Origin: Desulfobacca acetoxidans DSM 11109
GTDB taxonomy: Bacteria; Desulfobacterota; Desulfobaccia; Desulfobaccales; Desulfobaccaceae
NCBI RefSeq assembly: GCF_000195295.1
Contig: NC_015388.1
Span: 2,914,001 to 2,978,000, forward strand
DNA: 64,000 bases
Direction: 5' to 3'
Shown here: one piece after another, positions 38,629 through 41,613 of the stretch
How positions within the stretch are numbered: position 1 is the first letter of the stretch
Layout of the letters: every line of letters starts with the position of its first letter
Translations under genes and position numbers: made by a program
Notes under the pieces: model-generated
Told to the model about the DNA's origin: nothing
Seen by the model: only the letters and a program-made list of their open reading frames with translations
Database searches by the model: none

Positions 38629-39696
38629 ATGATACAGGAGCTTATTTTTAAGGCTGTAAACCGGCAGGATTTAACCGCTTCCGAGATGACCGAGGCCATG
38701 GAGACAATCATGACCGGCCAGGCCACCGATGCCCAGATCGGAGCCTTTATCACCGCCTTGCGGATGAAGGGGGAGACGGTAACCGAGATCACCGCCGCCG
38801 CTCAGGTCATGCGCGCCAAGGCCACCCGTATTCCGATAAGCGATACCTTGATTGACCTGGACCGCGATGAGATCAATATCGATCGGGAGACTATAGTAGA
38901 TACGGTGGGTACCGGGGGTGACGCCACTAATACCTTCAATGTCTCCACTACGACCGCCTTTGTCGTCGCCGGGGCCGGTCTGAAGGTAGCCAAACACGGC
39001 AACCGAGCGGTCTCCAGCCGCTGCGGGTCCGCCGATGTTATTGAGGCCCTCGGGATTAATCTCGCCCTAACCCCGGAGCAGGTAGGAGAATGTGTCCGGG
39101 AGGTGGGCATCGGTTTTCTCTTTGCGCCGCAGTTGCATGGGGCCATGCGCTACGCCATCGGTCCCCGGCGGGAGATTGGCATCCGTACCATTTTTAACGT
39201 CTTGGGGCCGCTCACCAACCCGGCCGGTGCCAATATCTTGGTAGTCGGGGTATATGAGGCCCGGTTGACCGAACTATTGGCGGGTGTCCTCCTGAATCTG
39301 GGAACAGATAGCGCCTTCGTGGTGTATGGCGAGGGGTCATTCGATGAGATCAGCATTACCGGGCCGACCCGCGTGAGCCAGTTGCAGCATGGTCAGATTA
39401 AGACATACACTATTACGCCGGAGGAATTCGGCCTGCGGCGGGGGGTTCTGAATGATATCCGGGGAGGCGATGTTTTCGAAAACGCCAAGATCGTGCGGCG
39501 GGTCCTGGCTGGAGAACCGAGCCCCAAACAGGATATGGTGGCCCTGAACGCCGCCGCCGCCTTCATCGCCGCCGGGCTGACGCCGGATTTTGGCGCCGGC
39601 CTGACATTGGCCAGAGAGGTGATCACCTCCGGTCGGGCCCAGGCCAAGTTAGACGCCCTGATCGCCAAGAGTAAATCTTTTGAGAGGTCGGCATGA
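38629..39696 (+). CDS. trpD: anthranilate phosphoribosyltransferase
   Basis: 355 aa. Second step of tryptophan synthesis. [18 protein letters not shown] binds PRPP, with [53 protein letters not shown] and GEGSFDEIS following. The frame is open upstream into korC (38218), but those residues are a shadow. The ATG at 38629 with AGAGAGGG upstream starts the family sequence ([10 protein letters not shown]). Overlaps trpC by 4 bp. The 68-bp gap after korC contains no clear attenuator. Confidence 0.95.
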
Positions 39697-40481
39697 AGGA
39701 CTTCCTGGAGCGCATCGTTGCCGCCAAGCTTCAAGAGAATGCCCGGTTGCGGGAGACGACGTCGCTGAAAGATTTACGCTCCCGTTGGGAGCGTCGACCG
39801 GAGGTCTTAAGTCTTAAAGCAGCTCTGGATCAGGCCCTCTTTCCGGCTATTATTGCCGAAATCAAGAAGGCCTCGCCTTCTAAGGGAGTGCTGCGCCCCG
39901 ACCTGGATCATATCGACCTGGCCTGTGCCTATCAAACAGCCGGCGCCGCCGGTATCTCGGTACTCACGGAGCGCCAGTTCTTTCAGGGAAGCCCCGATTT
40001 TTTGGCGGAACTACGCCCCCTGATCGGTATTCCGTTGCTGCGCAAGGACTTTATCCTGGAACCGGTGCAGGTGTATGAATCTGCTGCCCTGGGGGCCGAT
40101 GCCCTGCTGCTCATTGCGGCCTGCCTGCCGCCGGGGGCTTTGCGGGCGCTGCTCCTGCTCACCGAATCCCTCGGCATGCAGGCCCTGGTGGAGGTCTTTA
40201 GCGCTGCGGAAATGCAGCTGGCTTTGGAGGTGGGAGCCACCCTCATCGGGATCAATCACCGAAATCTGCACACCTTCGAGGTAGATATGAACCGCGCCCT
40301 GGAGTTGGCCCCCCTGGCTCCGGCTGACGTTACCTTAGTGGCCGCCTCGGGGCTGAACTGCCGGGCCGACCTGGAGCGCTTCCGCGGCAGCGGCATCAAG
40401 GCCTTTCTCATCGGCGAAACCTTGGTACGAGCGCCGGATCCAGGGGAAAAGCTTAGAGAGTTGTTGGGGGATAACCGCTAG
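39693..40481 (+). CDS. trpC: indole-3-glycerol-phosphate synthase
   Basis: 262 aa TIM barrel. [61 protein letters not shown] and [10 protein letters not shown] are the classic motifs, with the catalytic Lys and Glu present. It makes indole-3-glycerol phosphate from CdRP. Starts with ATGA overlap with trpD. Confidence 0.96.
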
Positions 40482-40566
40482 CGGAATCTTTGGCCGCCAG
40501 ACAAAAAGGATCATTGCCCCGGCCCTCACAAGATCGCAAGGTCACAGAATAATCTGAAAGGACAGC

Positions 40567-40881
40567 ATGATGAAAACCATGATTATTATCTCTTCCGATG
40601 TCGGCGAGACCATCTATAATGCCATGCGTCTGGCAAATGTGGCCGTCAAGAAGGGTGACGAGGTCAGCGTCTTCATGCTGGGACAGGGCGTCTGTTTCGA
40701 GCAGAGCAGCTCGCCGCAATTTGATGTGATGGGTGAGATCAATCACTTTACCGGCGATTTTTACGTTTGAGGGGTCTGTCTCAAATCCCACGGCTTGGTG
40801 GGATCAGGATCATGCCCTATAGCCTGGATGGATGACCTGTACGAATTGATCTCGGAAGCAGACAAAGTCTTGACCTTTTAA
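40567..40881 (+). CDS. DsrE-family protein, probable selenoprotein (UGA at 40768 read as Sec)
   Basis: The start at 40567 has AAAGGA upstream. Read to the first stop the product is 67 aa, ending HFTGDFYV-TGA. The same frame continues GVCLKSHGLVGSGSCPIAWM, then DDLYELISEADKVLTF and TAA (40879-40881), which is exactly the remaining C-terminal part of DsrE-like proteins. Their members have ACGxCLKSRG here, so the TGA replaces the conserved Cys and gives a UxxC motif (Sec68, Cys71). A hairpin with a 6-nt loop lies 21 nt after the UGA, as in bacterial SECIS elements. Predicted 104-aa small sulfur-transfer or redox protein, inside the trp operon. Confidence 0.85.
40771..40804 (+). promoter_or_regulatory. 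SECIS-like hairpin downstream of the UGA codon
   Basis: A perfect 7-bp stem ATCCCAC/GTGGGAT (40785-40791 with 40798-40804) closes the loop GGCTTG, 21 nt downstream of the TGA at 40768-40770. Bacterial SECIS hairpins sit immediately 3' of the UGA with an apical loop at about this distance and a G in the loop. It lies within the continuing reading frame. Confidence 0.65.
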
Positions 40882-40920: not shown

Positions 40921-41613
40921 ATGACGCGCGTTAAAATCTGTGGCATAACGAATCCGGAGGACGCCATTTTGGCCGCCAACCTGGGCGCCCAGGCTTTGGG
41001 ATTTATCTTTTATCTTAGGAGTCCTCGCTCCATCTCCCCGGAGGCGGCGCGCAACATCGTGGCCCAATTGCCGCCCCTGGTGCTCAGCGTCGGGGTATTT
41101 GTCAACGAGGAGCTAACTACTGTTAAAGCGGTGGCCGAACGGGTCCGCCTGGATTGGGTACAACTGCATGGGGAGGAGCCGCCTGAGTATTGCCGGGAAC
41201 TGCAATGCTCGGTTATGAAGGCGATCCAGGTTAAAGACGCAGGCTCTCTGATGCAGATGCGGCACTATCTGGGGAGTGTCCGCGCCTTTCTGCTGGATAC
41301 CTATAAGTCCGGTCAGCGCGGCGGCACCGGTATACATTTCGACTGGTCATTGGCCCGGCAGGCCAAAGAGTACGGCCCCATCGTATTGGCCGGCGGGCTC
41401 AATGCGGAAAACGTCGCCGCGGCCATTCGAGAGGCCGCCCCGCCGGCAGTCGACGTTGCCAGCGGCGTGGAAGCCTCGCCGGGCAGGAAAGATCCTGACA
41501 AGCTGCGGGCCTTTTTTCAGGCTGTAGCCGCAGCAACTGCGGGGCAAGAAAACTGGCCCGGCTCCGGGCCAGATGAAACTTCACGCGCCGTTGCGGAACC
41601 TGTTCGACGATAA
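40921..41613 (+). CDS. trpF: phosphoribosylanthranilate isomerase
   Basis: 230 aa. [12 protein letters not shown] with the catalytic Cys, [62 protein letters not shown] with catalytic Asp, and [10 protein letters not shown] followed by [16 protein letters not shown]. The Trp-pathway role is certain. A tail of about 25 residues after FFQAVAAA (rich in Gly, Pro and Glu) exceeds the usual length and is probably unstructured. Confidence 0.95.

Follow-up and report, generated by a model that had tools for sequence, protein, structure and literature searches.

Within the window, by which we mean the whole 64,000-nucleotide stretch of Desulfobacca acetoxidans DSM 11109 DNA analysed here (contig NC_015388.1, positions 2,914,001 to 2,978,000), a short DsrE-like frame is interrupted by an in-frame TGA codon, and the question that this locus raises is whether the codon ends a stub or is read as selenocysteine (Sec) within a longer protein. 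D. acetoxidans DSM 11109 is a sulfate reducer with a genome of 3,282,536 bases (PMC3156406), present as one contig in the assembly. Judged from its sequence, the apparently truncated gene almost certainly encodes a complete small sulfur-handling protein, the "stop" being read as selenocysteine at the reactive site. The features of the gene are the following:

40557 to 40563, forward strand: probable Shine-Dalgarno sequence AAAGGAC, proposed from the sequence, its spacing suiting the ATG at 40570 better than that at 40567.
40567 to 40881, forward strand: DsrE-like selenoprotein gene, predicted product of 104 aa with Sec68, or of 103 aa with Sec67 from the ATG at 40570.
40768 to 40770, forward strand: UGA codon, predicted selenocysteine and first residue of U-G-V-C, TGC or TGT in distant homologues.
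40777 to 40779, forward strand: Cys71 of UGVC (TGT), presumed resolving cysteine, unchanged across the three alignments A1, A2 and A3.
40813 to 40815, forward strand: Cys83 (TGC), third conserved cysteine, present in 80/80 members of the window's clade.

The frame contains one internal stop only, the TGA at 40768-40770, and runs on past it, as the original prediction had claimed, for 36 sense codons to a TAA at 40879-40881. Translation of the TGA as a residue gave the sequence ...GDFYV-U-GVCLKSHGLVGSGSCPIAWMDDLYELISEADKVLTF, and the read-through protein matched the Pfam DsrE profile PF02635 over its entire length (positions 1-116 of 116, E 5.7e-10, 39.8 bits against a gathering score of 22.7). 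This end-to-end match confirmed that the continuation supplies the missing half of a DsrE-like domain and that the predicted Sec-Gly-Val-Cys motif, U68-G-V-C71, lies within a PF02635 protein. The residue numbering held in part: Sec is residue 68 when counted from the ATG at 40567, but the natural product probably has it at residue 67, because the second ATG (40570) is where the homologues start and is also better spaced from AAAGGAC. Residue numbers given throughout follow the Sec68 numbering (start 40567).

The conservation of the TGA codon was evaluated among relatives of increasing distance. In the class to which the window belongs (29 genomes), a single TGA stood at this codon in each of three relatives with 73-81% identity, and it recurred in more remote members (31-36% identity). 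Across a 395-genome sample of the phylum, a homologue was detected in 85 genomes (E 1e-8), at least one TGA-bearing copy occurring in 64 of those. A scan of named genomes, carried out with search patterns that left the Sec codon itself out, returned TGA at the Sec codon in 80/80 close homologues and Cys in 0/80, with Cys at +3 and the third Cys at +15 after the UGA in all 80; nearly all these loci come from sulfate-reducing or deltaproteobacterial-type organisms, as judged by title. Since TGA stands at the exact codon in every one of these close homologues, its conservation is far beyond chance. The opposite pattern, a normal Cys codon in close relatives together with decay in D. acetoxidans, was absent.

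The genes for selenocysteine synthesis and insertion, which the original prediction had singled out as the ones to look for (selA, selB, selC and selD), were found as a full set in the D. acetoxidans genome. Both selA (603 bits) and selB (384 bits, match spanning positions 1-580 of 581) scored above cut-off, the tRNA-Sec returned 80.5 bits with the anticodon UCA assigned by ARAGORN, and selD was present with its own in-frame UGA near the N-terminus (VRAAGUAAKIPP), the genome therefore containing at least one further selenoprotein gene. The selD gene (G000:C1:557612-558529, minus strand; locus L029) shows a strong, long hairpin just 3' of its UGA. Gene content thus indicates that D. acetoxidans is able to decode UGA as Sec. 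In the 395-genome sample, selA occurred in 64/64 genomes with a TGA-bearing homologue versus 355/395 overall, a co-occurrence with P ~6e-4 under a simple draw that ignores kinship. In a Desulfobacca relative of the same genus whose assembly is 90% complete (G025), neither the DsrE-like gene nor selA was found, a pattern that suggests joint loss of the gene and of the Sec trait; the incomplete assembly is an alternative explanation.

Selection on the two halves of the gene was compared in moderately diverged pairs, which gave dN/dS values of 0.06 upstream of the UGA, 0.08 downstream and 0.04 past the hairpin described below, ratios that are approximate, the synonymous sites of such pairs being almost saturated. 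The low values after the UGA therefore place the downstream half under protein-level constraint. Synonymous sites were also informative on the RNA element expected just 3' of the UGA:

40785 to 40804, forward strand: SECIS-like hairpin with a 7-bp stem, ATCCCAC/GTGGGAT, and loop GGCTTG, examined by synonymous freezing, covariation and folding.

The hairpin was found as originally described, the loop standing 21 nt 3' of the TGA, and in relatives it mostly reads ATCCCAC-GGTCTG-G(T/A)GGGAT, the loop being GGTCTG in most homologues. Relative synonymous entropy was 0.27 of the maximum in codons +5 to +12, compared with 0.85 before and 0.88 after, and the near-frozen codons comprised TCC (67/68 Ser), CAC (74/77 His), GGT (69/76 Gly), GAG (47/47 Glu) and GGA (68/70 Gly); this freezing was confined to the hairpin. 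In the window's clade (49 sequences) 88.9% of the stem cells were paired, about half of the members lacking the inner A-U pair (columns 23-32), while in a second Sec clade (19 sequences) 97.4% of the cells were paired and C-G, A-U and G-C all occurred at the stem base. In the two clades the stem covariation score was above 500/500 shuffles and above every slid register. The hairpin stands just 3' of the UGA and carries a G in a small apical loop, as bacterial SECIS elements do. Where it lies, how its loop reads and how its stem covaries all agree with such an element, and the conserved hairpin, with its compensatory changes, is read as a SECIS. The GGUCU loop presumably resembles that of E. 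coli fdhF. A search of Rfam gave no match over the SECIS hairpin. The minimum free energy of the isolated hairpin was unremarkable (z -1.5 for the window, -1.5 to +0.3 for the members tested), and folding energy was rejected as SECIS evidence, being too weak.

These data bear on the possibility that the gene is a pseudogene or the product of a sequencing error, in which a nonsense mutation struck what had been a Cys codon and the half beyond it is now in decay. TGA is indeed one base away from TGC and TGT, and some homologues are visibly broken: L026 (G010) has an extra TAG, L028 (G026) is truncated, and L127 and L129 have extra stops, all attributable to recent decay or to assembly errors in draft genomes. 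However, a decaying gene is difficult to reconcile with a TGA kept in every close homologue and in copies from 64 genomes of the phylum, with purifying selection past the UGA, with synonymous sites frozen over the hairpin and with Sec machinery in the same genome. Pseudogene and sequencing error were therefore rejected on the conserved TGA and the dN/dS values, and we consider them extremely improbable.

The UGA might instead act as a regulatory stop, the main functional protein being the 66-67 aa N-terminal product and read-through being rare or selenium-regulatory. Bacterial SECIS read-through is often incomplete and varies with selenium supply, which would suit such a scheme. Yet the stub would end before Sec68, Cys71 and Cys83 and would miss the final helix and strand of the fold, dN/dS is as low downstream as upstream, and the Cys homologues make the full-length protein, so that a regulatory stop appears very unlikely and insertion of Sec at the UGA is the preferred reading.

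The residue that replaces Sec elsewhere in the family was then identified. The original prediction had relied on CGxC relatives with Cys aligned to the UGA, and these were found among distant homologues of the same phylum, where the codon is TGC or TGT, within CGTC, CGKC or CGLC motifs; haloarchaeal homologues also present CGTC, with Cys at the UGA position. Cys-form loci include L027, L033, L034 and some among L141-L152. From the sequences compared, the window's clade is apparently fixed for Sec. As codes in which UGA is reassigned occur in other lineages, the codon might be read as Trp or another standard residue through a suppressor or a changed code. Against this, 41/80 close-homologue genes end in TGA, and UGA therefore keeps its stop meaning elsewhere; moreover, the residue at the UGA position is Cys in the non-UGA homologues examined, and tRNA-Sec, SelA and SelB are present. 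A changed genetic code was rejected because UGA still ends genes and Cys stands at the aligned position, and such a decoding is scarcely credible next to selenocysteine.

Sec and Cys forms may also occur side by side: at L145 (G268:C77:15800-17200) one genome has a DsrE gene of the Cys form (CGTC) directly beside one of the Sec form (UGVC). Multi-copy sets were also observed in G395, G325 and G152, and G407 holds four TGA-bearing copies. The Cys homologue L141 (G171:C41), placed in the tree next to a Sec clade with a UGKC motif, carries CTTCC-GAGGCCT-GGAAG 3' of its TGC codon; this sequence may be a SECIS left over from a Sec-to-Cys change, which folding alone does not show.

As regards the genomic setting, the gene lies inside a trp operon between two flanking genes:

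39693 to 40481, forward strand: trpC, the 5' neighbour, same arrangement in L064.
40921 to 41613, forward strand: trpF, the 3' neighbour, same arrangement in L064.

The predicted order trpD-trpC-[gene]-trpF-trpB-trpA was right, and the suspicion that a copy in this setting is unusual was borne out, the setting being restricted to the genus Desulfobacca: trp genes surround only the gene of the window and L064, from another Desulfobacca genome. The trp position is lineage-specific and says little on function, and we rejected a functional connection with tryptophan synthesis on the finding that L064 alone among the 80 named loci has trp genes nearby. No clear conserved neighbours were found around the named loci and none points to a partner, so the reaction is a guess from fold and motif. 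By eye, a DnaJ-like protein occurs at six loci and an ArsR-type regulator at 15, at varied distances, and L076 and two further named loci have a SelD/YedF-type gene pair within ~1.5 kb.

The fold was modelled. An AlphaFold model based on an alignment of 30 sequences, with Sec entered as Cys, reached a pLDDT of 94.9, and its nearest solved folds were the DsrE/DsrF-like protein 3mc3 (VIA Z 16.0) and YchN, 1jx7 (15.0), followed by TusD, 2d1p (13.1), and DsrEFH, 2hy5_B (12.9). On this model we are confident in predicting a DsrE/YchN/TusD fold; searching the PDB with this one sequence gave no match. Sec68 aligned with Cys78 of the YchN CKTC motif and also with Cys78 of TusD, the latter alignment (hhalign probability 20%, E 0.001) being weak on its own; the TusD query matched PDB 2d1p_A over all 128 residues. 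In DsrE, Cys78 binds sulfane sulfur and passes it to DsrC; in DsrE/TusD it is the sulfur-transfer residue that carries a persulfide, and the DsrE authors proposed position 78 as the active site for the whole superfamily (PMC3397948).

These observations suggest a mechanism in which the hairpin just 3' of the UGA would recruit SelB with Sec-tRNA-Sec, selenocysteine would be inserted at position 68 and ribosomes would complete a protein of 103-104 aa. Sec68 would thus occupy the site of Cys78 in YchN and TusD and, by homology, also in DsrE. The likely chemistry would be a Sec68/Cys71 selenenylsulfide redox couple; alternatively, a selenium-bound sulfane-sulfur carrier might take up sulfur and hand it on, and Cys83 might serve as a third thiol. 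Because Sec68 aligns with the Cys78 site, the role is most likely that of a redox-active or sulfur-carrying Sec68/Cys71 pair, and by analogy the protein might act in persulfide reduction, in sulfur carriage or as a thiol oxidoreductase. Taken as a whole, that the gene encodes a DsrE/YchN-fold selenoprotein, with Sec68 specified by SelB and the hairpin, a full length of 103-104 aa and, as the likely chemistry, a Sec68/Cys71 couple or a sulfur carrier, is a reading in which we place very high confidence. All the computational checks listed in the original prediction came out in its favour, and of its refuting conditions that sequence could address none held.

With this locus, a sequenced type strain gains a well-supported selenoprotein, whose clade is widespread in sulfate-reducing bacteria, where ordinary gene callers are expected to truncate its members at the UGA. 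The selenocysteine occupies the position of the persulfide-bearing residue of DsrE/TusD, which makes it testable whether a selenium-bound intermediate moves or reduces sulfane sulfur in sulfate reducers. It also raises the question of why Cys is never seen in the clade, though Cys relatives exist, one of them beside a Sec copy. A broader proposal, which we put forward only tentatively, is that, in this phylum-wide DsrE-fold clade of sulfate reducers, Sec has permanently taken the DsrE/TusD persulfide site and the protein, linked to dissimilatory sulfur metabolism, carries sulfane sulfur on selenium or reduces persulfides.

Finally, we compared the protein with known systems. UxxC DsrE-like selenoproteins have been described from the Sargasso Sea, from Desulfovibrio vulgaris and from GOS data (PMC1088965, PMC1794560, PMC2398784) and are listed in reviews of 2022 and 2026 (PMC9312934, PMC13188914). 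The kind is therefore known, as the original prediction had suggested, the family dating from 2005-2006 (PMC1088965, PMC1794560, PMC13188914). The Desulfobacca protein shares with that family PF02635, a UxxC motif with Sec first and a SECIS directly downstream. In a tree of 56 proteins, built on few columns and lacking an outgroup root, the window's clade formed one branch (25 sampled members, support 99/94) apart from the UGKC clade, with Cys proteins in between. The UGKC clade, which prevails in the class that includes the Desulfohalobiaceae genome L098 and fills most Desulfovibrio-like genomes, differs from the window's clade, where the motif is UGVC, a third Cys is present (CPIxWMDDL) and the loop before the motif is three residues shorter. 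The published D. vulgaris protein and the published reference WP_014524487.1, neither of which is in the tree, presumably belong to the UGKC clade. The UGVC clade with the third Cys may be distinct, new and previously undescribed, and the gene is an added member of a known selenoprotein family, possibly from an undescribed clade. No paper treating D. acetoxidans together with selenoproteins was found among the open-access papers searched.

Among proteins with Cys at the site, the C-terminal DsrE-like domain of YedF has been reported to carry a CGXC redox motif (PMC5322559). The Desulfobacca protein resembles YedF (TIGR03527) in this motif but is devoid of the N-terminal SirA domain and scored 12.8 bits against a cut-off of 110. 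TusD/DsrE of the TusBCD and DsrEFH complexes (2d1p, 2hy5) share the fold and an essential Cys78 aligned with Sec68, whereas they lack a second Cys at +3, exceed the Desulfobacca protein in length and act in a hetero-hexamer with TusBC or DsrFH, whose genes were not found adjacent to the Desulfobacca gene. E. coli YchN (1jx7) resembles the protein over the whole length of the fold (Z 15.0, 104 residues, 2.3 A), with its CKTC aligned to UGVC; it differs in having Cys (C78) in place of Sec, in being slightly longer and in sharing 22% identity.
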